A stretch of 27,899 nt of DNA from a virus. The stretch is taken from the IMG/VR virus record IMGVR_UViG_3300025168_000499, positions 1-27,899 of that record; one strand, written 5' to 3'. Positions 1,295 to 27,098 of the stretch are shown in pieces (positions within the stretch are counted from its first letter, which is position 1; each line of letters starts with the position of its first letter). Under the pieces are notes generated by a model that saw only the letters and a program-made list of their open reading frames with translations, was not told where the DNA came from and did not search any database. A program made the translations under genes and the position numbers.

Positions 1295-1459
1295 ATGAAT
1301 CAAGAAGAGTGGCATAGTTGGTGCAACGGGGTTACTGATAAACTCACAAACCTTGAAATGACACTTAACTCCTGTCATAAAACACAGAAGCGTATGCTTT
1401 TTAGTATTATATTAATTTTAACAGGTGGATTAGGGTATGGTTTATTATTGCAGTTCTAG
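1295..1459 (+). CDS. Tiny C-terminally anchored membrane protein
   Basis: Encodes 54 residues starting MNQEEWHSWCNGVTDKLTNL. The polar N-terminal half looks helical and has two cysteines (10 and 27). Residues about 34-52 (MLFSIILILTGGLGYGLLL) form a membrane span close to the C-terminus. It starts four bases after the XhlA-like stop and its last 23 bases overlap the start of the connector gene in another frame. That overlap is large for this genome, but the connector start has its own ribosome site inside this gene (AGGTGGA, about 1422-1428). The protein resembles a second XhlA-like or holin-like protein. It is short, so it is called mainly on architecture and placement. Confidence 0.5.
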   Translation: MNQEEWHSWCNGVTDKLTNLEMTLNSCHKTQKRMLFSIILILTGGLGYGLLLQF

Positions 1460-1970
1460 CGACGTTGGTATGCGTTTAGGTTTAAATAGCGCACAACGTA
1501 CACAAGCGGCATCTAAACTTATTCTTGCTATACGCAGGTCTACCATAGATATAGACCAAGTGTTTAAAGATTACGGTAGAAACGTACCTAGTAAATCAAT
1601 AGCAGAAACTACTGCTAATGGTGCGGTAAGTGCGGGCGCTACTACTATGACACTAACAAGCGCCGCTTCCTTTACTACAACAGGTAATGGTAATATAGAT
1701 GGAGATTCTTTTGTATGGACAGGTAAAGATGCTAGTAACTCTAACATACTAACAGGCGTTAGTGGTATTAGCGCAGACCATGCAACAGGGGTTACTATTC
1801 AATCGGGCGAGTTTGCTCACGTTCTTAGAGAAATATGTGCTGATATAGCCGCCGCTTATTACATGGAAGATGAAGGTACATTTCAAGAAAACTCTTTGCG
1901 TGGTGGAGTTTTAAGAGAAAGAGGTACATTTAACCTAACTAGGCTAGCCCATTTGGGTAGTGTAGATTAG
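1437..1970 (+). CDS. Head-tail connector (adaptor) protein with inserted beta module
   Basis: Encodes 177 residues. The N-terminus (YCSSSDVGMRLGL) and the helical end (REICADIAAAYYMEDE) are typical of the gp6/gp15-type head-tail adaptors that bind the portal ring in HK97-like phages. Between these helices, residues about 54-121 are a Gly/Thr/Ser-rich insertion (GATTMTLTSAASF ... FVWTGK ... LTGVSG ... DHATGV) that looks like a small beta domain. The same pattern recurs in the tail tube and giant tail proteins of this window. The ATG is supported by AGGTGGA 8 bases upstream. Its position at the head of the neck and tail genes agrees with the role. Confidence 0.65.
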   Translation: MVYYCSSSDVGMRLGLNSAQRTQAASKLILAIRRSTIDIDQVFKDYGRNVPSKSIAETTANGAVSAGATTMTLTSAASFTTTGNGNIDGDSFVWTGKDASNSNILTGVSGISADHATGVTIQSGEFAHVLREICADIAAAYYMEDEGTFQENSLRGGVLRERGTFNLTRLAHLGSVD

Positions 1971-1978
1971 GTGAGGGT

Positions 1979-2647
1979 ATGAAAGGATATACAAAAGTAC
2001 CTTACGACCATGCCGGTTTTCCTAAAATTGATGCCGTAGGTAAGTTTAGGGCTAATGTTGTAAAACAGTTAGACAAACAACAAACGACACTAGACCGTGA
2101 AGTTAAAAAAATGCCTACTTATATCGGACCAAAAAGTAGTAAAAATCTAAAAAATAGATTATCAACAACAAGGAAAAGCGAAAATAGCAATATAAAAATA
2201 GATGCTTATTTTGACAAAAGTGCTTACGATAAAATGCTTAAACACATAAATAAAGAAATAGAAAAGAAAATGGCTAAGGCTATGGATGATGCGCTTGTTC
2301 ACGCTACTTCAAATACACAAAGTGAAATTGAAAGTATGCCTAGAGAGTTTAAAGGTGTTTACTCAAAAAATACCGCAGTCGATGGTGATTTGTACGACAA
2401 AATAGCCAACTCTTTATTTTTTGGTCTTAAACAATCTAACAGTAAAAATCAATTTTCTTCTTTTACGGCAGGGTCTTATAATGATTCTCAGTCATTAGAG
2501 GGAGAGCCTGAGGGTGTGGAAGGTAGTAGGGGTGCTAATCTTACTCTATTAACGGCAGACGGTATGAGTCCTTTTAAAATAGATTCTCACCCTTTAGGTG
2601 GAACAAAAAGATTAGTTAATCACTTAAAGAATGCAAGAGGTGGTTAG
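1979..2647 (+). CDS. Putative head-tail/tail completion protein (HK97 gp10-like by position)
   Basis: Encodes 222 residues, lysine-rich, with a long helical central region (about 60-115: YDKMLKHINKEIEKKMAKA) and a glycine-rich C-terminal part ending NHLKNARGG. The start follows a strong GGTGAGGG ribosome site and lies 8 bases after the connector stop. Its place between connector and tail terminator is where HK97-like phages encode the gp10-type completion protein. The amphipathic helix with basic residues followed by a domain with Asp/Gly loops is compatible, but I see no diagnostic motif. The function is therefore mostly positional inference. A minor capsid or neck protein is the main alternative. 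Confidence 0.45.
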   Translation: MKGYTKVPYDHAGFPKIDAVGKFRANVVKQLDKQQTTLDREVKKMPTYIGPKSSKNLKNRLSTTRKSENSNIKIDAYFDKSAYDKMLKHINKEIEKKMAKAMDDALVHATSNTQSEIESMPREFKGVYSKNTAVDGDLYDKIANSLFFGLKQSNSKNQFSSFTAGSYNDSQSLEGEPEGVEGSRGANLTLLTADGMSPFKIDSHPLGGTKRLVNHLKNARGG

Positions 2648-2648
2648 T

Positions 2649-3710
2649 ATGAGTATAGCAACAAAAACACAATATTGGAATAGTAGGATGACGGGTTTAG
2701 ACCCTACTGCTTTAACAGGTACATTTAATGATAGTTGGTCGGCTAGTGGTAGTGGTTCAGCATCCGGTAATGATTGGTTAATTACTAACGGAACATACAC
2801 AATTACTCCCGAAGCAGGCGGCTCTTACACATTAGTTGCCGCCTTTGAATATACTACTGCGCCAAACTCCGGCACTGTTCTTATGACTTTAGATAATGGT
2901 ACACATAAAGTTGAAGTAAAATCCACAGGTAATAACTCATCACTAAGTTTAGTAGGTGCTAGTACAGTTACCATTACTGATTTGGACATCAAAAAAGAAG
3001 AAGAAAGCCCCGTTACTTTAATCTTAAGATTAACTTTAGAAGCAGGAGGGGCGGCAAAACTTTACACTCACGAAATAGTCAACGACTTTAGTGGGACAAT
3101 AGCCTATTATAGTGTTACAGGCGCTTCAGGAAGCAGTCCGGCAGTCAAATGGGGTAACAGTAGCGGTAGCGTAAAATGGGCGGCTATACACTACTCTAAG
3201 TTCGGTGCGTTTTCTCCCGAAGAATTATTAATATCTGACTTTGCACAAGATACTTTGGCAAGAATGGGTCTTGGAATAGTTCAACAACTAAAAAGTAGTA
3301 ATAGAATGTATCTAAAAACACAAGTACCGGACTCATCAATAGTATATGGTTACGACATATCTTCACAAATGCTTAACAGAATACCTGTACCAAGCATACA
3401 CGTTTTAATATCTGAATTAAACTCACCTAATTTTGAGTCATTAGGCGGGGCTAAAATAACACAAGAGTATGATGTTAGGGTGTTTATTACTGTTAGAGGT
3501 ACTAATTATGAAGATGCTTACCGAGCAGGTCTTAATATTATGGGAGAAGTATTTGATGAGTTATATACAAATACAGGTGTTTCAGGAACAACAGACAGTA
3601 TTATTTCTTATGATGCTAAATTAGACTCAAAAATGGATGATGACGAGACTGTTTGTGTTCATGTTCTCACACTTACTTATATGAGAAGAATAGATATGAG
3701 ACACAGATAA
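2649..3710 (+). CDS. Tail terminator protein with N-terminal LamG/concanavalin-like domain
   Basis: Encodes 353 residues. The start at 2649 is preferred over an in-frame ATG at 2631 because GAGGTGG lies 7-12 bases upstream and the gene then begins one base after the previous stop. Residues 1 to about 185 are beta-rich with Gly/Ser/Thr turns (GTVLMTLDNGTHKVEVK, LILRLTLEAGGAAKLYTHE), resembling a LamG/concanavalin-type sandwich. Residues about 186-353 look like a tail terminator: a helix (EELLISDFAQDTLARMG), then IHVLISELNS, ITQEYDVRVFITVRG, a helix and LTLTYMRRIDMR. Terminators in lambda-like phages cap the tube and are usually 130-200 residues long, so the extra domain is notable. The order (completion protein, terminator, tube) supports the call. 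Confidence 0.55.
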   Translation: MSIATKTQYWNSRMTGLDPTALTGTFNDSWSASGSGSASGNDWLITNGTYTITPEAGGSYTLVAAFEYTTAPNSGTVLMTLDNGTHKVEVKSTGNNSSLSLVGASTVTITDLDIKKEEESPVTLILRLTLEAGGAAKLYTHEIVNDFSGTIAYYSVTGASGSSPAVKWGNSSGSVKWAAIHYSKFGAFSPEELLISDFAQDTLARMGLGIVQQLKSSNRMYLKTQVPDSSIVYGYDISSQMLNRIPVPSIHVLISELNSPNFESLGGAKITQEYDVRVFITVRGTNYEDAYRAGLNIMGEVFDELYTNTGVSGTTDSIISYDAKLDSKMDDDETVCVHVLTLTYMRRIDMRHR

Positions 3711-3719
3711 TAATATTGA

Positions 3720-3733
3720 TAAGGCAGTCCTTA
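3720..3733 (+). other. Small hairpin upstream of tail tube gene
   Basis: TAAGG, loop CAGT, then CCTTA forms a perfect 5-bp stem. It lies in the 52-base gap before the major tail tube gene, one of the two longest gaps in the window. There is no U-run right after it, so a classical terminator is doubtful. A transcript-processing or stability element is possible. A similar hairpin lies after the tail tube cassette at 5203-5216. Confidence 0.3.
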
Positions 3734-3762
3734 CCTCATCGTACTATACTAGAGGCATTTAT

Positions 3763-4980
3763 ATGGTAGAGTTCTTAAATAGATATGTTGGAATAAAGAA
3801 AGAAGCGACGTATGGCACAGTAGCAGTAGGTGCTATAACTACGTTTAAACACGGAGAAGTTGATGATGAATCATTTGCTACACGAATGGATATGTTGACA
3901 AGACAAGACATGAGTAGAGCGATTGTTAGTAAATCAGTAACAGGTACAGAATATTCAGAAGGCGGCCTTAATATGGCTATGCAAATTGATGACTTTACAG
4001 GAAATGTTTTAGCGGCATTTTTCCCTGCTACAAGTTACGCATCTAGTGGTACAATACATACTTTTGAAGAGCCAAGCACAACTTCACACTCTTACAATTC
4101 ATACAGTTTTACAGTAGGTAGAGAAGATAGAGAGATAACTTACAAAGGAATGGTAGCAAACTCATTATCAGTAACAGCAAACGTAGGAGAATACGTTATG
4201 ATGAGTGCTGATTTCGTAGGCCAAAGAGAAGTAGTTAGGACACTAGGTTCTGCTTATTCTAGTGGCGCTACATCTTTAGTGTTATCAGCAGGACAAGGTG
4301 CAGGATTACACACAACAGGAACAGGTTTTGCAGGCGGTGTTGCTTTTACTTGGAGTAACTTAATCACAGACACACTAACAGTAGCAGACTTAGGTGCAAG
4401 CGTAGTAGCAGGTGCAGTAGTGGAAATTAACCCACAATCAGTTACTTTTGCAGGAGATGCAGTAGACGCTCTTTACTTTTCTAACGGTTCAGTAAACTTT
4501 GACGATGTAACAGGTAATGCACCGGCGGCATCAGCAAGCGTTAAATCAGTTGATTTCCAAATTAGCCTAAACCCCGATACAGACAATACATACGCAATAG
4601 GAGACAGCACATACAGCAGTAGACCAAAAATGCAGAGAAGAGAAATTACAGGAACAGTTGAGTTTAACAAAGTTATGTACCTAGACCAAACACTTGACGA
4701 ACCGGATTATTCAGCATTAGTTTCAGCAGACGGATTAGATTATTCAACTGTTGATGATGCACCAACAATGGTATTAAAGTTTGCTGATGAAGCAGGCACA
4801 AACCATATTACTTTTAACTTCTATCACATTAGATGGGAAACACCTACTGCTAACGTAAGCGGAAGAGATACAAATACAATGAGTGTTGGTTTCATAGCAC
4901 TATATGACGCAACAACAAGTGGTGCATCTAAGGCTATGAACGTAAAAATGGTTGGCTCTACAAGCACAACAGCATACTAA
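3763..4980 (+). CDS. Major tail tube protein
   Basis: Encodes 405 residues. The N-terminal part (KKEATYGTVAVGAITTFKHG, then RQDMSRAIVSKSVTGTEYSEGGLNM) is characteristic of phage tail tube proteins of siphoviruses, as is the alternating beta-strand pattern later (EITGTVEFNKVMYLD; GRDTNTMSVGFIALYDA). Residues about 160-225 carry a Gly/Thr-rich insertion (GATSLVLSAGQG ... FTWSNL) resembling the beta module seen in the connector. At 405 residues it is longer than the usual 150-300, probably because of this insertion and surface domains. It lies after the tail terminator and before the chaperones, as expected. AGAGG 7 bases before the ATG serves as ribosome site. Many copies per virion are expected. 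Confidence 0.75.
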   Translation: MVEFLNRYVGIKKEATYGTVAVGAITTFKHGEVDDESFATRMDMLTRQDMSRAIVSKSVTGTEYSEGGLNMAMQIDDFTGNVLAAFFPATSYASSGTIHTFEEPSTTSHSYNSYSFTVGREDREITYKGMVANSLSVTANVGEYVMMSADFVGQREVVRTLGSAYSSGATSLVLSAGQGAGLHTTGTGFAGGVAFTWSNLITDTLTVADLGASVVAGAVVEINPQSVTFAGDAVDALYFSNGSVNFDDVTGNAPAASASVKSVDFQISLNPDTDNTYAIGDSTYSSRPKMQRREITGTVEFNKVMYLDQTLDEPDYSALVSADGLDYSTVDDAPTMVLKFADEAGTNHITFNFYHIRWETPTANVSGRDTNTMSVGFIALYDATTSGASKAMNVKMVGSTSTTAY

Positions 4981-5250: not shown

Positions 5251-5592
5251 ATGCCTGTAATGAAGAAAGAGATAGAGTTAGAAGATGGAACAAAGATTTG
5301 GGTTAGACAAGCCTCCGGTATGGAAAAGTTAGCAGTAACTAATGTTCAAGGAAGGGCATTTAGAAAAATGCGCCACGCAGGTGAGCCGGAAAAATGGACA
5401 GAAGAACAAGAGCAAGAGTTTACTAGTCTTATAGAAGATGGCGGCGGAAGCATACAAGACCAAATTACTACTTGGATTCCTCCTTGTATAATAGATGAAG
5501 ATTTTGATATTAATTCTTTAACAACAGAAGAGTTAATGGAAATTTTGTTTTTCGTAAGAGGGGATGACAAGGATGGCGCTATCCCTTTGTAG
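5251..5592 (+). CDS. Tail assembly chaperone, short form (gpG-like)
   Basis: Encodes 113 residues, acidic overall, with a beta-hairpin start (KKEIELEDGTKIWVRQ), a helical middle (REF-type segment with many Glu residues) and IDFDINSLTTEE-like acidic motifs before ELMEILFFVRG. The size, the pre-tape-measure position and the frameshift signal at the 3' end fit the lambda gpG family, which binds the tape measure protein and recruits tube subunits. The stop codon TAG at 5590-5592 directly follows the heptamer CCCTTTG. The family diverges strongly in sequence, so the assignment rests on context and on the frameshift arrangement. Confidence 0.65.
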   Translation: MPVMKKEIELEDGTKIWVRQASGMEKLAVTNVQGRAFRKMRHAGEPEKWTEEQEQEFTSLIEDGGGSIQDQITTWIPPCIIDEDFDINSLTTEELMEILFFVRGDDKDGAIPL

Positions 5593-5897
5593 ACTTTATT
5601 AGAGTAGCCCCCTCTCTATGTATGGCCTTTAAGGGGGTTTTACCCTCTGACCTATGGTTAAAATATAACGTAAAAGGTGGCGCACATTTAATGGATTTAG
5701 ACCTTATTGTAGCGGCTAATATTAATGATAGTATAGGTGAAGCAACTACTAAAGCGAAGAAAACAGATGCAAAGGGCGCAGTTGCTAGACGCGACCAAAG
5801 AAGGGAAAAACGCAAACTATTAAACAACAACAATAGTCTACTCGATATATTGAGAGATAGCGGAGTGCCTGTCGAGGGCAAGAGTAGTGATAATTAA
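5251..5897 (+). CDS. Tail assembly chaperone, -1 frameshift product (gpG-T-like)
   Basis: The -1 frame is open from 5568 to the stop at 5895-5897. Slippage at CCCTTTG (5583-5589) would join the 113-residue short form to 102 more residues, giving a 215-residue fusion with the junction GAIPL-VDFIRVAPSLCMAF. The stretch VDFIRVAPSLCMAFKG lies before the first ATG of this frame (5622), yet looks like ordinary protein and links naturally to the preceding domain. The extension is basic near its end (ARRDQRREKRKLL) and ends 2 bases before the tape measure ATG. In lambda the T domain binds the tape measure. The alternative is independent initiation at 5622, giving a 91-residue protein (5622-5897). Confidence 0.65.
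5583..5589 (+). promoter_or_regulatory. Candidate -1 ribosomal frameshift slippery site CCCTTTG
   Basis: In the zero frame the bases read C CCT TTG then TAG. This fits the X XXY YYZ rule exactly (X=C, Y=T, Z=G) and sits immediately before the zero-frame stop, inside the 25-base window in which both frames are open. Slippage by one base gives V-D-F-I-R in the -1 frame. Confidence 0.6.
5606..5639 (+). promoter_or_regulatory. Candidate frameshift-stimulating hairpin
   Basis: AGCCCCCT (5606-5613) can pair with AGGGGGTT (5632-5639) to give an 8-bp stem with five G-C pairs and one G-U, around an 18-base loop. Runs of five C and five G are rare in this AT-rich DNA. The spacer from the slippery site is 16 bases, longer than the usual 5-9, so its role as a stimulator is uncertain. 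The loop contains the alternative ATG at 5622. Confidence 0.4.
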
Positions 5898-5899
5898 AT

Positions 5900-8800
5900 A
5901 TGATAGAGACAATTTATATGGACTCATACTTAGAGTTTGTTATTCCTTTTGTTTTTATCGTAAATGCTGTTACTCTATTAGTATTACGTTCCGGTGCTTC
6001 TAAAGTTTTCTTCGACATTGTAGGTACGTTTCAAGCACAAAGATTAATCAAAGATGCAAAAGCATCACAAACCGTATTCGAGGCTTTATACCTAGATTCT
6101 CTATCGGGAATACAGGAAGGCGCACAAGAATTAAGTGATATATTTACTGAAATGACTGATAGAGTAATACCTATCGTAAAAGAAATAGAAGAAGCAAGAA
6201 TTGAATTAGAGAAATTTATGACTGTTACGGGTGTTGAGGCAAGAATAGCGGCAAATGAAATAACAGAAATAGGTTTGGCGTTTGGTTTTAGTGCCGACCA
6301 ATCAATGTTAGCCGGTGCAAAAATGGCTCAGTTGTCTGGTGTTTTAGGAGCAGGCAGTCTAGCGACGGGTACAGAAGTGGGTATGGCTTTTGGTCTTATA
6401 TCCGGCATGGAAACAGATGCGGCTATGCAACGTATGATTAACTTGCAGGCACAAACTAAGTTTATGACTAAGGGCATAGAAGATGAAATGTCCGTTAGAG
6501 AAAAAAATGATAGAATTAGAATGAACAGCCTACGTATTCTTAATCAACTAAATACTGTTGAGAATAGGTCGGTTGCTACAATGGAACAGATTACTTTCGT
6601 TATGAATCAATTCGCATCACAGGCTGAGTTGACTAATGAAAGTATAGCAAGTATGGCGGCTTTATCCGCTACACTTATTGAAGCCGGTGAAGAACAAGGT
6701 AAAGGTGGTCGTGCTTTACGTATGATGTACGCTAGACTTGGTGCTGACATTAACGGCTCAAGAAAAGCAGTTGAAGATTTAGGTATTGCTGTCGCCGATA
6801 ACGAGGGAAACATGAGAGCGTTTTCAGATGTATTACAAGACTTAGCAGTTGAGTATAACAAAATGAGTGGTGAAAGAAAAACTGAATTGGCTCAAACAGT
6901 AGCCGGTAACAGACATTATACTCGTCTTATTAAATTACTTGAAAACGTAGATAGGGTAAAGGAGTTGGAGTTTGAAGCAACAATTGCTATGTTCCCTGCT
7001 ATGGATGAAATAGAAAGAAGAAGAGGAACGGAAATATTTGCTTTGCAGAAAGCAGAAATGGCTTATAAAAATTATAGTGCTTTATTGGGAGAAGAATTAG
7101 TTCCTGCTATGACTGATGTTACTAACAAACAAGCACTTATAATAAAAGATTTTGCCGGAATGGTAAACAGTCTTGGTGGTGTTGGTGATGCTATGATAGG
7201 CGTTACTCAAGGTATGAAAACAATGATTGGCCCGACTTTTAATATGTTGTTAAACATACAAAACATGACTGTTGCTATGGACACTAATAGAATAATTAGT
7301 AGGGCTTTAGCCGGAGAAGGGATAGCAGGATTAGATAATGCTTATTCTCAATTAAGCCAAAGTTTAAGTTTACATTTAACTCATCAAGAGAATAAACAAC
7401 GGGCAGACGAAACTGAACACGAAGCGACTTTAAGAAAAAATAATGCGTTAAAATTATTAATACAAACCCAACAAGAATATAACGATGCTGTAAGTGCGGG
7501 TAATATGTACGATTTAGCAAAGTCTGATATTGACTTTAACACTTATCTTTCGAATGATGTTGATGCAACAGGTGAAAGAATAAGAGTACTAAAAAGATAC
7601 GAAGATTTTCAATTAAAAATGTTTCAAGGTAAAGCAGATAGGCGAAGAAGAGATGCGGCGGCAGAAAGAAAAACAGCAGGTGAGTTTAGTGCTATGGCTA
7701 GGGTACAAATAGACGTAGCAGATAGAGCATTAATGGCTACTCAGCAAAGTGGTACTCAAGAAGTAAATGGAATAAAAACTACCGCACAAACAAGACATGA
7801 CGCACACGTGCAAGCAGTTGACCTTAAAGAAGAGTTTTTGCGATTGAAAAAAGAACACAATGAAGCGGCAAGGGCTTTAGATGAGGAAGCAAATCAGTTT
7901 GAAAAGAGAATACGTGGCGAAAAAAAGGCTAGGCATAAAGATGATATAAGCGAATCTAAGGTTGAGAATGATTTAGTCTTAAATAAAGCGCAGATGTATA
8001 ATGGACTTACTTCAACCATGTTAGGTGTAGGAAGTGCTATGATGTTGGTTTCTAATAATCAACGTATAGTAAGGGGTGGTATGTTAGCAAATGCGGCGGC
8101 TATGACTTTACATACAGTAAAAATGCTTGCATCAATTGGTGCTTTTAAAGGATTTAATATGGTACAAGCAGAAACAATTTATAATATGGGAGTAGCACGT
8201 TATAAAAGTATGCAAGAAATATACACAAACGCACAAAAAACTGTATCACAAAACGCATACACTATGTCTATTGTTGGTTCTTCTAAAGCCATGCAAGGTT
8301 TAGCCGCATCTGCTGTTGTGGCCACAGCCGCTACTAAAAGTTTAATCGCTATGTCCGGCCCACTTATTCTTTTAGCATTAGCAAGTGTGGCGTTAATGGA
8401 AATAGCAGAAAAATTCGGTTTGTTTGAAACACCCGATTTAGAATCAAGTATGGCGGGAATTAGTTCTGCTAGTTTAGATACGGCGGCAACAATTGATATA
8501 TTAAACGAAAAACTTACTGCGGGGGAAATAGACGCACGAATAACAAAACAAAAAGATTTAGTAGATAGCCTAAAAGATGCTACCGGCGCTTTACAAGTTG
8601 CCGCTAGAGAAGCGGCGACACAAGAGTTACTTAATTTAAATACTGCTAAAAATGTAACAGTGTTTCCTAGTTTAGATACTTCACAAGCAGAAGGTTACTT
8701 TACTTTACTAGGTCGATTAGATAAGGCAAGAGATATGTATAGAAATAAATACTCAATGGGTCATTTTGATGGTAAGGAAAAAGAAGCACAAAAGGCTTTA

Positions 8801-9220
8801 GATAATTGGATTGACAGTAATGAAATTTTACACAATAATATTTTACAAAGTGGTGCAGAAGATTATAGGCAATATTCTATTGCGGCTAAACAATACAAAG
8901 AAGATATAGAAAATCAATTTGACTCGGAAATAAACGGCATTGGTATGATGGGTACTGCATACGATGAAGCAAAAGATAAGATGAATGATTTTATGAATGA
9001 AAGAGAAGAAATGTTTTATGGGTTTAGTAAAGATAATTTAACGGGTGATTTAGTTAGGCAAGTTACGCAACAAGGAGTTGATACGTTAATTACTACTACC
9101 GAAGTTATAATGACAAATAATTTTAATGGTATAAGTGTACCACAGATGGTAGATATTATAATAGACGAGATAGAGGGTAGGGGTAGAACGCACGGATTTG
9201 ACTTTTCCAATACTACTTAG
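5900..9220 (+). CDS. Tail tape measure protein
   Basis: Encodes 1106 residues. The N-terminus has a hydrophobic stretch (about 12-29, EFVIPFVFIVNAVTLLVL). Residues about 115-355 match the TP901-type tape measure core: AFGFSADQSMLAGAKMAQLSG, then repeated helices and a region with GGRALRMMYARLGADI and ERKTELAQTVAGNRHY. Long alpha-helical, Glu/Lys/Ala-rich coiled segments follow. Hydrophobic stretches at about 710-755 and 798-840 (SGPLILLALASVALMEIAEKF) are the membrane-like segments tape measures often carry for DNA entry. It starts 2 bases after the chaperone stop. From the usual 1.5 angstrom per residue, a tail near 160 nm would be expected (inference). It sets tail length and is ejected before DNA. 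Confidence 0.85.
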   Translation: MIETIYMDSYLEFVIPFVFIVNAVTLLVLRSGASKVFFDIVGTFQAQRLIKDAKASQTVFEALYLDSLSGIQEGAQELSDIFTEMTDRVIPIVKEIEEARIELEKFMTVTGVEARIAANEITEIGLAFGFSADQSMLAGAKMAQLSGVLGAGSLATGTEVGMAFGLISGMETDAAMQRMINLQAQTKFMTKGIEDEMSVREKNDRIRMNSLRILNQLNTVENRSVATMEQITFVMNQFASQAELTNESIASMAALSATLIEAGEEQGKGGRALRMMYARLGADINGSRKAVEDLGIAVADNEGNMRAFSDVLQDLAVEYNKMSGERKTELAQTVAGNRHYTRLIKLLENVDRVKELEFEATIAMFPAMDEIERRRGTEIFALQKAEMAYKNYSALLGEELVPAMTDVTNKQALIIKDFAGMVNSLGGVGDAMIGVTQGMKTMIGPTFNMLLNIQNMTVAMDTNRIISRALAGEGIAGLDNAYSQLSQSLSLHLTHQENKQRADETEHEATLRKNNALKLLIQTQQEYNDAVSAGNMYDLAKSDIDFNTYLSNDVDATGERIRVLKRYEDFQLKMFQGKADRRRRDAAAERKTAGEFSAMARVQIDVADRALMATQQSGTQEVNGIKTTAQTRHDAHVQAVDLKEEFLRLKKEHNEAARALDEEANQFEKRIRGEKKARHKDDISESKVENDLVLNKAQMYNGLTSTMLGVGSAMMLVSNNQRIVRGGMLANAAAMTLHTVKMLASIGAFKGFNMVQAETIYNMGVARYKSMQEIYTNAQKTVSQNAYTMSIVGSSKAMQGLAASAVVATAATKSLIAMSGPLILLALASVALMEIAEKFGLFETPDLESSMAGISSASLDTAATIDILNEKLTAGEIDARITKQKDLVDSLKDATGALQVAAREAATQELLNLNTAKNVTVFPSLDTSQAEGYFTLLGRLDKARDMYRNKYSMGHFDGKEKEAQKALDNWIDSNEILHNNILQSGAEDYRQYSIAAKQYKEDIENQFDSEINGIGMMGTAYDEAKDKMNDFMNEREEMFYGFSKDNLTGDLVRQVTQQGVDTLITTTEVIMTNNFNGISVPQMVDIIIDEIEGRGRTHGFDFSNTT

Positions 9221-9231
9221 AGTGTGATAAT

Positions 9232-12200
9232 ATGGTAAGAACAGTAGAAAAAAAATATCAAGTATGGCTTGCAGGCTACTACGATGATTTTAACGGTGCA
9301 AGAGCAATACCGGATTATTTACAATTACCTTCTGATACATTATACTCATCAACACTAAGTCATTTTGGAAATCCTATAAACGGTGAGGCTTCTCTCAATC
9401 CAAGATACAGATTTAGTATAGCAGATAGAGATTTAATAGGCTCTATTCAAATTAGTGGGGTAAGTAATGCTAATGATAATCATTATCTTAGTAACAACGG
9501 TATATTTGAGTGGTTATCTAATGATGTAACAAGACAAAGTTATAACAAATGGGAAGGTAGAATACAACTACAATATCCTGATGGACACGTTGCTAACAGA
9601 TACAGATTTGGCGGCAGTACAGCACAAGGAAATATAGGTTATCAAAGATTTGTTAACGGACACGACAGTAGTGGTACTTATATTGTTCCTGTTGGAGATA
9701 ATGATGCTACTTTTGGTAGGGCAGGTATGAAAAGATTTGACATGGAAACTACTAATAAAACAAACTACGTAGCCGGAGATGCCGGATTAATTTCAACCAC
9801 AGGAGATTTCGTACAAAGAGCGCATCTTACAGGCTCTTGGATGGGAGAAAAAATGCGTACCACTACAACAGATACACCGGCTCAAGTGTTTGCAGAAGTT
9901 ACTTCTCCCTCAAAACAACCTTTTCTTTGTGTTCAGAGTAGTAGAAAATCAATAGCAAACAATGGTACTACTAATTATGCACCAACTATAATATATGACG
10001 GTGCGTTAAATACTAAATTAGATAGAGATGTTTTTACCGCAAGAGTAGCCTTAAGAAGTTATTTGTCTACCGCAGACAATTGGGATGATGTAGCAATACG
10101 TTTTGAAATAGGATTTCCTTCAACGCAAGCGGGTTTGTTAAACGACACCGGATATACACGAAGTTCAGACGTACCTGCAATAGATTTTAAGTTAAATATG
10201 TCCGAAATAAGTTATAACACTAAGGCTTTAATACATGATGGTAGTAACGCTGTATCTTATACTAATGATAATTCTTGGATTGATGTTGATTTTGTGTTTG
10301 ATTACACTAATAATAAGTTTAAGGTTTATTATAACGGTACGGAATATACAACACAGAATAACATAAATGGGGCAGGTGGTTATGATAATGGGTATAGTAT
10401 GCCTAATGGTACTACCGCAAGCAATTTATATGGTTGGCAAATGACTGTTCAAAGCACAGAAGGTACTGATGGTAATTACGGTTATGTTTCTTATCTAATG
10501 TTAGATAGAGTAGGTTTAGTAAGATACCTTACAGATGATATAACTACTACTGATGAAATACATATAGAAAGTCTTTCCTTAAATCAACCCGTTAACGGTA
10601 TAAGTAATTGTAATATTAAAGTAAGTGATGACCCCGACAGGGCGACCAACGGAAATACAGGATTAGTAGCAACAGATTATGTGGAAAATTTAAAAGATTT
10701 GTTTGTATCTAGCACATCTTTAAATTGGAAATTATTAATTTTTGGAGATATAAATTCAAAAATAGATAGACCAATATGGAGAGGTCATATAGATAAATTT
10801 GATATAAAACAAAGAGGAAGAAGTAGGGAAATATCTTTTTCTGCTCAAGATTCTTTTATTTTGATGGGAAAACAAATACCTTTATGGGAAGTAGGACAAA
10901 AATCATTAGATGATAACTCCCAAGAGATACCTTATTGGTTGTATGACGCACAAGGATTTAAAAATATAATGAATCTAGGTGCGTCTAACCTAGAATTAAA
11001 TGATGAAAATATAGGTTTTGAATCAATTAGTAGTTACAAAGAAACATCAGACCAAAGAACGCAATTACATAGTGGTTTACCTATACAAATGTATAACAAC
11101 GAAGATAGTCTTGGGCCAAATAATATAGAAGATTTTTATGAAGGCGTAAGAATAATAGGTTTTGATGAAGATACTAGTAGTAATACTAGATTTTATTTGA
11201 GTGCAACACCAACATTATTTAGTGCATTAAGCACTAATTTTAATATAGTAAGTACTAGACACACTACTACTTCCGCTATACAATTTAATAGTATTACTAG
11301 TGATAATATAGTAACTGCTAATCCGTTATCATATAATCCTGAAAGTGCAAAAATAATCTATATAGGAAAACAACAGAGTCTACTAACTCTTGATAGTGAT
11401 TGGGTATATCCACCAACCGACCCTGATAATTTTGGTGAAGATGCTTGGAAAGAGATAGTAGACAAACACCCTGCATACGAAGATATAGAGCCGTTTTCTG
11501 GGCCTCATAATATGCACGTTTATTTTGATGCAGACCCTAATTTACAATTAGGAGACACAATATATATAGATAACCAAAATATTAATAATACGGTTAATTT
11601 AAATACCGCTTACTACAAAAAAGAAGGTCATAAAATAATAAAAATAGATAAAATATTAAGTTATTTTGGTAATTTGCCCGCAAAAACATACCGTAATAAT
11701 ACTTTAGCCGGACATCATGATGGTACGGGTAGAATATATATTTGGGTAGTAAAAACAGATACAGAAATTACTAGTAGAAATTGGTCAACACAAAGTATTC
11801 CCGAACACGGTATCTATACGGCTAATAGTTTTAACACAAGTAGTTTTAACAATACACAAACAAGTATTGTTTTAAATAATACACATGGATTTACAGGTAA
11901 CGGTACAGCAAGAATAAAATTACCTTTCCCAATCGCTGTTAGTGGTGTTCTTCATAGATATATAGAGTTTACTTATACCGGAATTATCAACTCACAACAC
12001 ACACTAACGGGTGTAACTAGAGGAAGTGGCTCTTTTAACCAAAACCACCCCACCTTAGCAGGCTATTCTACACATGGTGCGACTGTTTATCAAGTACCTA
12101 ATAGTGGTTCGGTTTATCCTAATTTAAACAATAGTACATTACTTGAGGGTGATAATAGGTTTCAATGGAGTAAAGACACAGGGCGTATAAGAGGTGTATG

Positions 12201-15200: not shown

Positions 15201-16476
15201 AAATGTAAAACATAGTGGCTTCTATGAAATAGCATTACCTTCCACATACAGCGACACAAGTGTAGGTAACATGGTAGTTAGTTTTAACGCAGAATATTGT
15301 AGGGCTTTACTACGTCATAGATGTGGCGACCCTACACACGCAAACATTCTAAAACAAGTGGCTACTAACACTAACACAATATTCCCTCTAGGTATGAGAG
15401 AATACAGCGAGATGGGTGCTATGGGTACTACTAGAGCAAAATGGTATGCCCCTAAGATTCTAGTAACTAGAGATTTGTCTTACACTCCTGCTACTTTCGT
15501 AAATGTTACAGATGCAGGTTTAGGTGTGTCTAATGAAAATCTAGTTATAACAAATGTTAGGTATGCTTTAAGAGCAGGGGCAAGTGAAGAGTTAACTTTA
15601 ACACTAGAAAGGGATGAATCAATAACTGCTAGTAGGTTAATACAACATCTTTTTGGTACTGATGACGGACAAGATAATGATGGTCAAGATTTTGGAGACG
15701 ACGGTGGAGTTATAAAACCACCTATAAGTAAGCCCGATGAACCAATAGATGATAGACCGCAATTACCGCCGCCCGATACCGACCCCGATGCTGATGAGAA
15801 TAACGAATCGTTTCAGACATCTAGGGGTAAACAAAGACAAAGAAAATTAACTAAAGGTAGTAAAATGAGCCTAAAAAAAGATATGTTTTCGGGGGATGGG
15901 AAGTTTAGCATTTTGGGACAAGAAAAACCTCAATCTATACCCACTATTATGAGAAGTATAGAAGGTATGGATGTAGATATAGTAAACACTAGTGGTACTG
16001 CGGTACTATCTTCCGAAGGATATGTTTTTGCCGGTACAGGATTACAAGGTAGTGATAGTTCTTCTATCTCAAGTCAAGAAGTATCTATCGAAACTACATT
16101 CGTAGTACCCTATGATGTAATGTCAAATAGATTTAGTATTGACTCTATAATATCTCATTCATCATCTCATTCTGTAAGTGATAACGCTACTCTTTATAGC
16201 ACAATAAAATGTATGGAAACAGGAAAAACTCTGAGTCATAATACCACAGTAAGAAGTGGTCTTAATAAAGAAAAAATTACTATATTCCCTAGCACTAGAT
16301 TAACAGGTATGGAAACTAGCGGTAATAATATTAAGGTAACTATAACTAGAAAGCCAAATACTTTAGAGGATGGTTCACACGAAGCAAGTATAGTATTACA
16401 CAACTTACAAATTAAGATGCACAGGGCAGTAGCCCACAGTCCTTCATCATCTAACAATTTTTCGACTATCACTTGA
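9232..16476 (+). CDS. Giant baseplate/tail hub protein with fibre-like modules
   Basis: Encodes 2414 residues. Visible parts, by approximate residue: 1-220 a beta-rich tail-tip domain; 225-435 LamG/concanavalin-like (FKVYYNGTEYTT, ending GYVSYLMLDRVGLVRYL); 440-550 a hub-like segment (WKLLIFGDI ... WRGHIDKFDIKQRGRSREI, FSAQDSF); 862-957, 1041-1140 and about 1412-1480 copies of a small Gly/Thr-rich beta module; 1614-1830 a second hub-like part (GRTILSTIQKMKNASG, VEFRPKYK); about 2083-2130 a closing segment ending LTLTLERDE; 2157-2190 an Asp/Pro-rich linker (PPPDTDPDADENN); then a C-terminal beta domain. Hub segments split by large insertions suggest the distal-tail and hub/fibre proteins of siphoviruses combined in one chain, which would contact the host surface. 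It lies 11 bases after the tape measure and ends the plus-strand unit. Confidence 0.65.
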   Translation: MVRTVEKKYQVWLAGYYDDFNGARAIPDYLQLPSDTLYSSTLSHFGNPINGEASLNPRYRFSIADRDLIGSIQISGVSNANDNHYLSNNGIFEWLSNDVTRQSYNKWEGRIQLQYPDGHVANRYRFGGSTAQGNIGYQRFVNGHDSSGTYIVPVGDNDATFGRAGMKRFDMETTNKTNYVAGDAGLISTTGDFVQRAHLTGSWMGEKMRTTTTDTPAQVFAEVTSPSKQPFLCVQSSRKSIANNGTTNYAPTIIYDGALNTKLDRDVFTARVALRSYLSTADNWDDVAIRFEIGFPSTQAGLLNDTGYTRSSDVPAIDFKLNMSEISYNTKALIHDGSNAVSYTNDNSWIDVDFVFDYTNNKFKVYYNGTEYTTQNNINGAGGYDNGYSMPNGTTASNLYGWQMTVQSTEGTDGNYGYVSYLMLDRVGLVRYLTDDITTTDEIHIESLSLNQPVNGISNCNIKVSDDPDRATNGNTGLVATDYVENLKDLFVSSTSLNWKLLIFGDINSKIDRPIWRGHIDKFDIKQRGRSREISFSAQDSFILMGKQIPLWEVGQKSLDDNSQEIPYWLYDAQGFKNIMNLGASNLELNDENIGFESISSYKETSDQRTQLHSGLPIQMYNNEDSLGPNNIEDFYEGVRIIGFDEDTSSNTRFYLSATPTLFSALSTNFNIVSTRHTTTSAIQFNSITSDNIVTANPLSYNPESAKIIYIGKQQSLLTLDSDWVYPPTDPDNFGEDAWKEIVDKHPAYEDIEPFSGPHNMHVYFDADPNLQLGDTIYIDNQNINNTVNLNTAYYKKEGHKIIKIDKILSYFGNLPAKTYRNNTLAGHHDGTGRIYIWVVKTDTEITSRNWSTQSIPEHGIYTANSFNTSSFNNTQTSIVLNNTHGFTGNGTARIKLPFPIAVSGVLHRYIEFTYTGIINSQHTLTGVTRGSGSFNQNHPTLAGYSTHGATVYQVPNSGSVYPNLNNSTLLEGDNRFQWSKDTGRIRGVWSNEAEEIKNRANHALWMRDLPMSLWFQYHFGIVNVNYVNKTLPSGVNANIYSAMNNGSSQTISPTTTAIKVHQKTYENFPSHGVVEIWRGDAQGSAGTYSSNNLVYEEKFIYRGKKIVSGVYYLVGVKYIAGTYVSAGDANSTSPPYYYMRVQEISNDYKHLWLLWADMRNNGLADADGGFRKKNFGLQHPMSENYKLDMFYADQVDEKGNIDKFGSLDIGDDINIWNVDSTNDTSTGAAYSKPADYSSSQTVSSIANDVSSGKLKILTSETGTVAVGNYIHLIGTADHDGIHKVASGGLSNNAHFITETTFVSTTVNTEGAIYCPTTGSDQDLSYYHDWENKAGALLVVDASRFFNLNTNANSGKTGQLSGLGTDLGDYVQTRQGFPALIDNYWAEALPSYRTTGDLTGEHPSQYKLLSDVTLTDGLISGSKGIAIDDATKFGSSGVGSIILKYNNNNALNRKYYFAWGNKLATEYSSSSAVDANPVVNSSSSNFNGNITTTITNTGESHVTSQLKEGMLIRRTDVSAGETYNETIVDVISNTQLEVSGTWAEGNTYVVPVQLGKVYICHNEFDEIISSTLDGLERAIFAEYSLAGSWGDYGVDITYDSANEPDSFQVHSTAYPQYMLRLLMHLNGYIKNKNSGTFYESDKVRTLWNAAIMDTWLPPTILYSMYDINNVPITNIMTSYSDTDSNDSYGSMVDARGRTILSTIQKMKNASGVGEDNNIDISFSYLIGKDNRVEFRPKYKSNINFTRSNIKINSLSTKLDSQVTNIRVYYNNGKSFVDWPSTTISNTTRWKVLEYPKIKQHSEATHIAKKQYATSVNAPFEVRISPVTTTAEKSKMIDTGRYGYIADSYVALEGTDDGYTKVCNWTRLGTGGVLFNGMVNALDGNQKTSSNLYARYGISKDATSSGDVSWGDNYYWYGSGSISNAVQIVHIPNGTPFVSDNHTHPMRIWIDLKASQESDATIDTAEFTINVGDYSFDNATKSATSQSSVTVNVKHSGFYEIALPSTYSDTSVGNMVVSFNAEYCRALLRHRCGDPTHANILKQVATNTNTIFPLGMREYSEMGAMGTTRAKWYAPKILVTRDLSYTPATFVNVTDAGLGVSNENLVITNVRYALRAGASEELTLTLERDESITASRLIQHLFGTDDGQDNDGQDFGDDGGVIKPPISKPDEPIDDRPQLPPPDTDPDADENNESFQTSRGKQRQRKLTKGSKMSLKKDMFSGDGKFSILGQEKPQSIPTIMRSIEGMDVDIVNTSGTAVLSSEGYVFAGTGLQGSDSSSISSQEVSIETTFVVPYDVMSNRFSIDSIISHSSSHSVSDNATLYSTIKCMETGKTLSHNTTVRSGLNKEKITIFPSTRLTGMETSGNNIKVTITRKPNTLEDGSHEASIVLHNLQIKMHRAVAHSPSSSNNFSTIT

Positions 16477-24086: not shown

Positions 24087-24095
24087 GTTATAAAC
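24087..24095 (-). promoter_or_regulatory. TATA-like element at the end of groEL
   Basis: On the minus strand the stop region reads GAAAGTTTATAACC, a good fit to an archaeal BRE (GAAA) plus TATA box (TTTATA). It overlaps the groEL stop and lies about 24 bases before the RecA-like ATG. It may start a transcript within the unit, but it overlaps coding sequence, so chance is possible. Confidence 0.25.
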
Positions 24096-25632
24096 TTTCA
24101 GTAAGTATTGCCGCATCAGTCATAAGAAGTAATGCCGCTACACTAACCGCAGATTCTAAACTGTTAATTGTTACCTGTGCGGGGTCAATAACCCCATCAT
24201 CAAATGCGTTTCTAACATCAGTAGTTTTACCGCAAATATATTGACCGTATTTATTTATAGGTATCTCGCCTGTATTATTACCTGCGTTCTCTATTATCGC
24301 AGTTATGGGTGCTTCTAACCCAAGACAAAATAATTTTCCAATGTGTCTTGATACATCTTCGGGGTAGGGGGTTAGGCTCATTTGAGCGAAGTATAATGCT
24401 GAACCTCCACCTGCTACCACACCACCATTCATAGCCAAACGACAAGCATTTACTGCGTCATCCACACGTTCTTTTCTTTCTAGTTGTTCGACCTCAGATT
24501 TACCACCGACATATATCTTAGATATACCATTAGTCAATCTTGATATACGATTGTTATAGTATTGTTGCATCCAATCATTAGTTGCTTCTTCTTCATAAGA
24601 AGCCAAAGAATCTAGGTGTTCGTTTAATTCATCAGACGACTCTCCACTCGCTGTAATTATAGTAGTCAAAGCAGAAGCCTGTATTTTATCACATGAGCCT
24701 ACATCAAATGAAGTTAGTTTAGTGATAGATTCTCCTAGAGAAGTCTTGAACAAATTACTTTTAGTAACTAATGCTATATCTTCCAACCATGCTTGTTGTT
24801 CGTCGGGCATACCCGATGGCTTAACTAATAATGCACTTATTTTACCCTGTGCTATATTGACTAAAAGATTCTGTAACGCTTGATGATTAAAGTCGGTGCA
24901 GAATATAGCAATAGGTTTGTTGTCTTTGACTGCTAACTCTAAAGCAGGTATCAAAGCATTGAACGTCTCAATCCTTTCGGTTGTTACTATAACCATAGGA
25001 TTATCTAAGATGCACCTAGCCTTCGGGCTGTTTATCATAACATTATGTGCGTAGCCCGATAGAACCTCTAACCCCTGCACATCTTCTGTGTATGTTTCAA
25101 AGGTAGGGCTTTTTTCTATGGTAACAGTACCTTTGCTACCTGTCTTAGCAACTACATCTGCTATTAATTTACCCAACGATGGGTCATTGTTAGCGGCGAT
25201 AGTAGCCACATCTTCGATAGAGAAGTCATCAGTCTTAGTCGCATTAAGGAAATGTATTGTTTCTTCTAAGAAGTGAGCCAAAGCATCTCTAATAACAATA
25301 GGACTCACACCTTGTTCTATCAAGGTAAGAGAACCATTACACAAAGCCTGTGCTATAAGCGTAGCAGTAGTAGTACCGTCTCCCGACTTCTCCTGTGCTT
25401 CGCTAGCGACTTCTTTAAGTAAGTCTATACCCATTTGTACGTAAGGGTCTGCATCATTAATAGCCCTAGCAACAGTAACACCATCATTAAGAATGACAGG
25501 CATACCGTTAGGGTTCTGAATGATAACCGTTCTTGCATTCACCCCTAAAGTACCCTTGACTGCGTTAGCAACCTTATTCACACCTTTGAGTAATTTACTC
25601 TTTGCTTCCATTCCTGTTAATATTGTTTCCAT
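24088..25632 (-). CDS. groEL: Group I chaperonin (GroEL-like)
   Basis: Encodes 514 residues, against about 548 in bacterial GroEL. Group I hallmarks are clear: GVNKVANAVKGTLG near the start, NDGVTVARAI (equivalent of Asp52), SGDGTTTATLIAQAL (ATP-binding GDGTTT), RVDDAVNACRLAM with GGVVAGGG (equivalent of Asp398), and DDGVIDPAQVT near the end. The C-terminal Gly-Gly-Met tail of bacterial GroEL is absent. It is not a thermosome. GAGGT lies about 8 bases before the ATG, and a GroES-like gene ends 9 bases upstream. It would form the folding chamber for viral proteins, perhaps capsid or the large tail proteins (inference). Confidence 0.92.
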   Translation of the reverse strand: METILTGMEAKSKLLKGVNKVANAVKGTLGVNARTVIIQNPNGMPVILNDGVTVARAINDADPYVQMGIDLLKEVASEAQEKSGDGTTTATLIAQALCNGSLTLIEQGVSPIVIRDALAHFLEETIHFLNATKTDDFSIEDVATIAANNDPSLGKLIADVVAKTGSKGTVTIEKSPTFETYTEDVQGLEVLSGYAHNVMINSPKARCILDNPMVIVTTERIETFNALIPALELAVKDNKPIAIFCTDFNHQALQNLLVNIAQGKISALLVKPSGMPDEQQAWLEDIALVTKSNLFKTSLGESITKLTSFDVGSCDKIQASALTTIITASGESSDELNEHLDSLASYEEEATNDWMQQYYNNRISRLTNGISKIYVGGKSEVEQLERKERVDDAVNACRLAMNGGVVAGGGSALYFAQMSLTPYPEDVSRHIGKLFCLGLEAPITAIIENAGNNTGEIPINKYGQYICGKTTDVRNAFDDGVIDPAQVTINSLESAVSVAALLLMTDAAILTESL

Positions 25633-25641
25633 AAAAATACC

Positions 25642-25932
25642 TCATATAAAATCGTCATGCACGTCTCGGTCGTAGTATTCTTCTCCACCTATATAGTAAG
25701 GTACTTCCTCACCATCAAATGCTAAGATGTCAGAATAATGCAGACAAACCTTGCCGTCATCCAATGTCATTTCTATTTTATCACCATTGAATAGTACGGT
25801 GTCTCCGCACCCTATTTCTAAGGGTACGAGAGAACCTATACTATCAATAACATATTCTTTTGCGGTAATAAGACCCGATGTACTGATTGTTTCAGCCATC
25901 TTAAGGATAACGTATTCTCCTACTGCCTTCAT
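25642..25932 (-). CDS. groES: GroES-like co-chaperonin
   Basis: Encodes 96 residues from the ATG at 25932, which overlaps the RPA stop as ATGA; an in-frame start farther upstream would lie inside the RPA gene. KAVGEYVILKMAETISTSGL resembles the first strand and mobile-loop region of GroES (V-I-V-K ... GGIVL), and the ending CGDTVLFNGDKIE with LHYSDILAFDGE parallels VGDIVIFN ... ESDILA. The loop is shorter than in bacteria, as in T4 gp31-type proteins of variable sequence. It ends with an acidic tail. The direct neighbour groEL supports the call: it would be the lid of that chaperonin. Confidence 0.8.
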   Translation of the reverse strand: MKAVGEYVILKMAETISTSGLITAKEYVIDSIGSLVPLEIGCGDTVLFNGDKIEMTLDDGKVCLHYSDILAFDGEEVPYYIGGEEYYDRDVHDDFI

Positions 25933-27098
25933 TGTTCCCACCCGTCGTTTTCCACGACAGGCTCGACCATCTGAGGGATGACATCGAAAGCATACCAACC
26001 ATTGACTGATAATCTATCTTCGCCTTCTCTACTTCTCCAAGCCCCACCTAGTAGTAGCATCTTTGTTCCTACTGCAAAGTCAATTTCTTCATCACAATAT
26101 ACATCTACTGTACCTGCCATAGATGTCATGTCTGTATCAGCACAAACTAAGATATACCCACCTTTGTCTCTTGGGTCGATATGTATTACTTCGGTAATAA
26201 CAGCGCAGTTTCTATCCCACCAACCGTCTTTACCATTGTATGTGTCGTAGTATGTACCTAATTCAGATAGTCCGGCTAGAAGATTCTCTTCGCCAATCAG
26301 ACCACCTATGATGTCAGTAGGCGCACCTTGAAATAAGTCGGCCAAAGAAGCATCAACAGTATGTACTGAGACATCTGCGTTTAAGTAGCATCTATCATTT
26401 TTGCCACCCTTCATAGGTATAGTTAATGGAGTGAATGACGGGTATTGTCTGTCAGCCGCCGCACCATTACCACTTACTTTAAGTATTTTTAAGGAATCAT
26501 TAGTACCTTGTTTTCGACCAAAGAATAATGATGTTCTTTCTCTCTCATCTTGAGGTCGAGCCGCACCGTATTTGAAGTTAGCATCACCGGATGGGAATGT
26601 TGGGTTATTCTTATCCCATACTACAAAGAAATGTGTGTTACCATTAAGCATCATCGTGTGCTTTGGTAGAGAACCTACATCACTTTCAGTACCCATACCG
26701 AACATTTCTGCCGCCAATCTTGTGTACGTTCCGTCATTGTTATCTTCAAAGACAACAACCGCACCACTGTCAATCAGTACTTGGCGTACATCATCAGTAG
26801 CAGTCATAAGTTGATTCTTCATCTTATTGTATAGTATTTTACCCCACTCTTTAGGTCTTGGTACAGAAATAAACATACCCTCGAAAACATCCGAGCCTGT
26901 TCTTCGTAGTCTAGCAGATTCAGAAGAGATTTGTCGCCCTGCGACTCTTAGTGCGAGTACCGCACAATCTTCATCAGAACGGCCTGCATTTCTCCATGCA
27001 CCCCCTTGTTCTACAAGGACTTCATCAGCCCTACTTTGCACCACATCGGGTGCTACGTTCAGCGTTTTAGCAATATTTTCTAGCATTTGGTTACTCAT
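25929..27098 (-). CDS. RPA-like single-stranded DNA-binding protein
   Basis: Encodes 389 residues. The N-terminal 100 residues are helical and charged. The rest is beta-rich with OB-fold features: a central domain around MMLNGNTHFFVVWDKNN, and a C-terminal one with CAVITEVIHIDPRDKGGYILVCADTD followed by VGTKMLLLGGAWRSREGEDRLSVNGWYAFDVIP. The last stretch resembles the closing strand pair of RPA/RFA1 OB domains. It ends with an acidic tail (VVENDGWEQ), common in SSBs. No CxxC zinc finger like that of RPA70 is seen. Location between RFC and the chaperonin in a replication unit supports it. The assignment is moderate, as OB folds diverge strongly. TGAGGT lies 8 bases upstream of the ATG. Confidence 0.55.
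   Translation of the reverse strand: MSNQMLENIAKTLNVAPDVVQSRADEVLVEQGGAWRNAGRSDEDCAVLALRVAGRQISSESARLRRTGSDVFEGMFISVPRPKEWGKILYNKMKNQLMTATDDVRQVLIDSGAVVVFEDNNDGTYTRLAAEMFGMGTESDVGSLPKHTMMLNGNTHFFVVWDKNNPTFPSGDANFKYGAARPQDERERTSLFFGRKQGTNDSLKILKVSGNGAAADRQYPSFTPLTIPMKGGKNDRCYLNADVSVHTVDASLADLFQGAPTDIIGGLIGEENLLAGLSELGTYYDTYNGKDGWWDRNCAVITEVIHIDPRDKGGYILVCADTDMTSMAGTVDVYCDEEIDFAVGTKMLLLGGAWRSREGEDRLSVNGWYAFDVIPQMVEPVVENDGWEQ

Follow-up and report, generated by a model that had tools for sequence, protein, structure and literature searches.

The stretch of viral DNA analysed here (27,899 nucleotides, hereafter the window) is a 27.9-kb virus record in which the structural genes run rightward up to position 16476, and the leftward genes include those for PolB, RFC, a GroEL-type chaperonin, an ERCC4-type nuclease and a PD-(D/E)XK nuclease. 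Head and tail modules on one strand, the replication module on the other, and the presence of PolB, RFC and GroEL make up the layout of a magrovirus (order Magrovirales), and the same gene content and layout are described for the Aoguangviridae and Apasviridae, magroviruses of marine Poseidoniales (PMC10768690, PMC12999244). By these features the virus fits a magrovirus-like assignment, and its hosts are thought to be ocean archaea, the marine Poseidoniales. The major capsid protein and portal genes lie outside the window. In tblastn searches of the phage collection, PolB was closest to tailed viruses of haloarchaea, with an identity of about 24.5% across as much as 99% of its length. The chaperonin (24088-25632, minus strand) is of the bacterial GroEL type (NF009487, 390 bits against a cut-off of 352), here in an archaeal virus, and a small ORF adjoining it (25642-25998, minus strand) could, by its position, encode a GroES-like cochaperonin; GroEL and GroES have both been reported for the Aoguangviridae (PMC10768690).

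The gene of interest sits directly upstream of the PF18906 tail tube gene and after the neck genes, which is the position of a tail terminator, and is followed by the tube gene, two small genes, the tape measure gene and the gene for a tip protein of 2414 aa (Table 1). For the 177-aa protein family in the adaptor position no functional family was found, its PHROG hits being weak and scattered; its central conserved, beta-rich stretch (TTxNGAV...GNGNIDGDSFxWTGK...) looks like an inserted module. The head-neck cluster also contains a small SAP-domain protein, putatively nucleic-acid-binding (671-1045, E 3.2e-11).

Table 1. Features of the neck and tail region, in window coordinates
Feature	Position	Strand	Basis
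177-aa protein in head-tail adaptor position	1437..1970	+	Conserved neighbour; role by position only
222-aa protein in neck/tail-completion position, fast-evolving	1979..2647	+	Gene order; role by position only
Predicted lectin-terminator fusion gene	2649..3710	+	Open frame, 353 aa; 52-sequence alignment; AlphaFold2 model
Predicted N-terminal ConA-like/LamG-type beta-sandwich, residues 1-186	2649..3206	+	VIA-align, 6eks, model residues 10-186
LDNGTHKVEV, residues 81-90, most conserved block	2889..2918	+	Entropy per block, 52-sequence alignment
Predicted C-terminal tail-terminator domain, residues 187-353 (fold match 201-350)	3207..3707	+	VIA-align, 8bcp_B (T5 p142) and 9fkb_Pa (HFTV1 gp29)
Major tail tube protein	3763..4980	+	PF18906 Phage_tube_2, E 1.7e-13; phrog_290, E 3.7e-18
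Two small genes (5251-5592, 5622-5897) in tail-assembly-chaperone position	5251..5897	+	Gene order only
Tape measure protein	5900..9220	+	PF10145, E 8e-14; phrog_5448, E 2.7e-16
Candidate lectin-like beta-sandwich in giant tip protein, residues 190-435	9799..10536	+	Weak model, VIA-align; moderate support

An open-frame check of the window places the start of the gene at an ATG at 2649 and the end of its stop codon at 3710. An alternative in-frame ATG at 2631 would add six residues; relatives align from 2649, and the ATG there is the start in 48 of 52 members. Since the frame is kept open across relatives at 41-96% identity, the ORF is not a product of chance. Sequence-family searches with the protein (Pfam, PHROGs, NCBIfam, PDB) returned nothing convincing, nor did searches with its 52-member family and profile against Pfam, PHROGs and PDB. 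The window protein drew from Pfam a single family, DUF4394, below the curated cut-off (E 0.012), and no lectin family was found in Pfam with any of the 52 members at E up to 0.1. At the level of sequence the protein is therefore not a member of the Pfam Laminin_G or lectin families, none of which scored above its curated cut-off. The catalytic motif of GH16-type glucanases, E-x-D-x(1,2)-E, occurs in the first 190 residues of none of the 52 members.

Fold of the two halves

The AlphaFold2 model, built as a single chain on an alignment of 52 homologues, has a mean pLDDT of 82.8 and a pTM of 0.76, with a beta-sandwich up to residue 183 followed by a helix-strands-helix-strands arrangement. VIA-align, run over the 1000 best Foldseek chains, gave matches in two separate families, one per half. 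The closest match to residues 10-186 is a lectin domain, that of the Vibrio cholerae sialidase (6eks; Z 14.5, rmsd 2.3, 153 residues aligned), which we take to be CBM40-type, and further matches are to trypanosomal sialidases (Z about 13), ERGIC-53 (Z 12.3) and GH43 and GH16 sandwiches; the predicted N half thus has the beta-sandwich fold of the ConA-like lectin/glucanase superfamily. Residues 201-350 match T5 p142 (8bcp; Z 14.0, rmsd 2.3, 133 residues aligned), chain 9fkb_Pa of HFTV1 (Z 13.3), phage Chi (8vhx, Z 13.0), P74-26 (9oab, Z 12.6), Milano (Z 12.0) and Bxb1 (Z 11.9), so that the modelled C half has the fold of a tailed-phage tail terminator of the gpU/gp17/p142 type. The HFTV1 chain is gp29, the terminator, annotated as SPP1 gp17-like, and not that virus's 158-aa tube protein of similar length.

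The original prediction had read the first 185 residues as a concanavalin/LamG sandwich and the C-terminal 165 as a tail terminator. Structure prediction splits the protein as claimed, nearly to the residue, and gene order fits the second assignment; at the level of the model, the presence of a ConA-like lectin fold and a tail-terminator fold in one protein is confirmed. Foldseek alone listed mostly lectin-type domains for the fusion protein. Many of its PDB rows were receptor-binding parts of clostridial neurotoxins and their partners, a likeness that we read as reflecting the common sandwich fold only. Among the best 50 of 357 matches in a viral structure library (E <=0.001), none covered the full length of the fusion protein, and the best TM-score by query length was 0.39.

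A second LamG-like region had been proposed in the giant tip protein, and this has weaker support. Residues 190-435 are beta-rich, and their best VIA-align matches are galectin-like, Emp46/47 and other lectin-type sandwiches (Z 9.7-9.0); the model is poor, however, with a pLDDT of 49.4 over the N-terminal 556 residues (ten sequences) and of roughly 50-80 over residues 190-435. A lectin-like domain in the tip is plausible, and the modelled evidence for it gives moderate support.

Distribution and conservation

Relatives were recruited with the whole fusion protein (best 80 of 83 relatives), with the C half alone, starting from a distant member (best 80 of 249), with the adaptor-position gene (best 80 of 215) and in one further relative search (best 80 of 245). 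The whole protein recovered 78 full fusions and 2 cut ones (L080, L081). Recruitment with the C half found the lectin in frame in 80 of 80 loci (best 80 of 249), 78 of them full and 2 cut by contig ends (L125, L127). With the adaptor-position gene (best 80 of 215), 77 loci were fused and in the other three the contig ended too early; 76 were full, one had a partial C match (L207), two had the N half only before the contig ended (L231, L250) and one was too short (L222). In L207, the terminator-half HMM matched positions 1-123 of 167 only. HMMs of the two halves match one reading frame in 188 of 191 loci, and the remaining three are a locus that begins within the tube gene (L083) and two records of haloarchaeal viruses. 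No locus with the C half and without the N half appeared in this two-HMM check among the loci examined. The lowest identity to the window protein, 41%, is that of L088, which was found through the tube gene.

The fusion had been proposed as something to seek in other viruses, and among the relatives examined the two halves share a reading frame wherever the gene is intact. It is universal in the loci examined, which come from overlapping sets that were all seeded by the fusion gene or its neighbours. A tblastn search of 50,697 phage records at E up to 1 found no relative, either with the window protein or with the distant L088. In representative prokaryote genomes 172 stretches matched and none was a relative, and hence that search offers no provirus or host link. 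The simplest reading is that the fusion arose within the magrovirus-like lineage.

Within the 52-sequence alignment the two halves change at similar rates, the lectin half a little faster. For 430 pairs at 45-55% identity, the lectin half is at 49.6% and the terminator half at 53.9%; the corresponding values are 65.8% and 75.1% for 240 pairs at 65-75%, and 89.8% and 90.3% for 36 pairs at 85-95%. Summed over 86 non-independent pairs, dN/dS comes to 0.24 in the lectin half, against 0.18 in the terminator half. It is also in the lectin half that conservation peaks: no other 10-residue block of the protein is as conserved as LDNGTHKVEV (mean entropy 0.37 bits). The lectin half changes slowly, and the purifying selection acting on it resembles that on the terminator half.

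Across the 14 closest loci, identity is 89-98% for the adaptor-position gene, 86-93% for the lectin half and 95-98% for the terminator half; the tube protein is at 54-69% in 12 of the 13 closest loci that reach it, the exception (L015) being at 85-88%. In its pace of change the lectin-terminator gene resembles the slow neck and not the tail, where sequences diverge. A sharp fall in identity at the 3710-3763 junction, from the terminator to the tube, tape measure and tip genes, is seen in most of the closest loci. These patterns of sequence identity suggest tail modules that are exchanged, or evolve fast, beside a stable head and neck module. The 222-aa neighbour is present at the same position in all loci inspected; it has 57-60% identity in 14 of the 14 closest loci, between flanking genes at 86-98%, and in pairwise comparison of eight of them it spans 57-95%, against 90-98% for the terminator. 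In four contigs that carry both genes, the lectin half of the terminator has 92, 66, 67 and 68% identity to the window, and the lectin-like stretch of the tip 55, 58, 58 and 61%, which leaves a modest margin in three of these contigs.

A rate of change as low and as even as this would fit neck stabilisation, or a ligand that is conserved, better than it would fit adhesion that sets host range. The lectins of Thermococcales viruses are reported to vary strongly, in contrast with the conserved lectin half here (PMC12934983).

Possible roles of the lectin half

Terminators sit on the tube as hexamers and provide the surface to which the head attaches (PMC11784142), and for lambda, SPP1 and T5 it is established that a terminator ring of six stops tube growth and presents the head-joining surface. 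In our best reading, this protein is the terminator on the tail of a magrovirus-like virus. As a hexamer, it would carry six N-terminal ConA-like lectin domains as a collar at the head-tail junction, and these, if displayed there, may make weak contact, without determining specificity, with a conserved ligand such as a glycan common to the hosts. Contact of this kind would help a side-on or head-first first encounter before the tip engages. We give this reading a probability of roughly 0.45. It draws support from the model, in which the nearest fold of the N half is a sugar-binding lectin domain (carbohydrate binding by the protein itself being putative), and from the lack of a GH16-type catalytic motif in the N half of all 52 members. 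As for placement, the N-terminal extension should sit at the junction, since helix 1 of the RcGTA terminator is described as touching the head-side stopper (PMC7296036). A precedent for glycan contact from this side of the virion may be HFTV1, where 50-70% of the particles are reported to bind cells by the head (PMC9973310) and a sugar-binding turret has been proposed (PMC12494034). The two fold matches (Z 13-14.5), the gene order and the universality of the fusion in the loci examined also count in favour of this reading, as does the weak host-cell binding reported for isolated carbohydrate-binding modules of phage neck proteins (PMC6669499). A further-reaching version, in which the collar is a virion-integral lectin whose six domains recognise a glycan common to archaeal hosts for a conserved neck-first or head-first contact, leaving host range to a variable tip, seems to us rather unlikely; if true, it would make adhesion part of the tail-capping machine itself.

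The most serious competitor is a collar with a purely structural role, the lectin fold having been co-opted as a brace between the terminator ring and the adaptor or head, or the first tube ring, with no sugar bound. Purifying selection and retention of the lectin half in every examined locus with an intact gene would suit a structural part at least as well as a binding one. So would the near-equal conservation of the two halves, and the observation that the terminator gene of the 14 closest loci is about as well conserved as the adaptor-position gene while tube identity falls. Extra domains with structural roles are described on some larger terminators of contractile tails (PMC11784142). Moreover, since the N-terminus of the T5 terminator is reported to take part in subunit contacts (PMC11784142), the lectin domain could pack against the ring and not be displayed at all. 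Set against a brace are the sialidase sugar-binding domain as nearest fold, the somewhat faster change of the N half than of the C half, as would be expected of an exposed domain, and the terminators of HFTV1, T5, Chi, P74-26 and Bxb1, which work without a lectin domain. We regard the brace as a real contender that falls short of probable; there is little to choose in likelihood between weak glycan contact and a collar that is structural only.

Two further explanations carry much less weight. The lectin-fold domain might be a docking platform for another virion protein, for instance the 222-aa neighbour or a neck fibre, and the neighbour is indeed constant in position and unusually variable between the conserved adaptor-position and terminator genes; however, none of the genes from adaptor to tube could be recognised as coding for a fibre, and the interaction is putative, so that docking is improbable. 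The C half might also be some other protein with the tube fold, for example a stopper or a further tube protein, because terminator, tube and distal tail proteins are described as sharing one fold family (PMC7296036, PMC11784142). Yet the phage matches among the best 50 VIA-align matches listed are terminators or neck entries (T5 p142, HFTV1 gp29, Chi, P74-26, Milano, Bxb1), the HFTV1 match is gp29 and not gp35, the tube protein of the same virus, and the true tube gene comes next downstream; we consider this explanation very improbable indeed.

If a lectin-bearing terminator is what the gene encodes, its interest lies in where the domain would be. Terminators are among the plainest and most constant parts of the tailed virion, and an apparently abundant lineage of ocean archaeal viruses would here always carry a lectin fold on its terminator, placing a sugar-binding-type domain, six times over, at the head-tail junction. 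The fusion is thus a testable candidate for the first contact of uncultured Poseidoniales viruses and, because no sequence library recognises the protein, a conserved two-domain marker for finding such viruses.

Comparison with known neck and terminator proteins

The C-terminal 150 or so residues resemble T5 p142 and HFTV1 gp29 in modelled fold; for lambda gpU and SPP1 gp17, likeness to the terminator fold is taken from the literature only. Placement in the gene order before the tail tube is common to all four and to the fusion gene. The known proteins are single-domain, of about 157-161 aa, whereas here a 186-residue lectin domain precedes the terminator domain. In HFTV1, gp29 (157 aa) is named a tail completion protein, and five genes separate it from the tube gene, gp35. 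Position and size alone make HVTV-1 gp127 (156 aa) and HCTV-2 gp37 (159 aa) single-domain terminator candidates, with a 108-aa gene between gp37 and the tube gene in HCTV-2. HHalign comparison of the N and C profiles with 19 proteins of HVTV-1, HCTV-2 and HFTV1 gave no probability above 1.8%; since it misses a true terminator, HFTV1 gp29, sequence profiles are useless here in either direction. The N half, for its part, resembles the V. cholerae sialidase lectin domain and ConA-like/LamG domains as a beta-sandwich (over 153 residues), but differs from the former in having no sequence match in Pfam or PDB and no enzyme attached.

A carbohydrate-binding-type domain at the neck had been called unexpected, given that adhesion usually occurs at the tip. 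That view holds in part only, for such modules at necks have been published. In 936-group lactococcal phages, carbohydrate-binding modules are found at the neck, where they are optional (73 of 113 phages, seven groups), and isolated modules from neck proteins are reported to bind host cells weakly (PMC6669499). The neck passage structure proteins of 936 phages and TP901-1 resemble the present case in carrying sugar-binding-type modules at the head-tail junction, but do so on separate long collar or fibre proteins, optionally and in several types, and the structure is described as not essential in TP901-1 (PMC6669499, PMC10747895). Here, instead of having a separate carrier, the lectin domain shares the terminator's reading frame and is conserved. 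The Milano collar protein gp13 forms a neck ring whose outward domain is described as structurally like glycan-interacting proteins, but it is a separate, 15-fold collar protein (PMC10491603). Closest in kind of virus is HFTV1, an archaeal tailed virus whose turret head protein gp31, encoded two genes after gp29, has a proposed carbohydrate-binding module on the head side; it differs in that it is a protein of its own, which forms trimeric turrets on the capsid hexamers and carries a deacetylase-like domain (PMC12494034). In the openly licensed literature searched, neither a lectin-type domain fused to the terminator itself nor a magrovirus with a lectin-fused terminator was found. Among the auxiliary metabolic genes that one magrovirus survey lists is that of a Laminin_G_3 protein, present in four groups (PMC10160649); it may be the fusion gene, the tip or another protein, the window protein having no match to a Pfam lectin model. 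What is known, then, is carbohydrate-binding modules on separate neck proteins; what appears to be new is such a fold, as modelled here, fused to the terminator.
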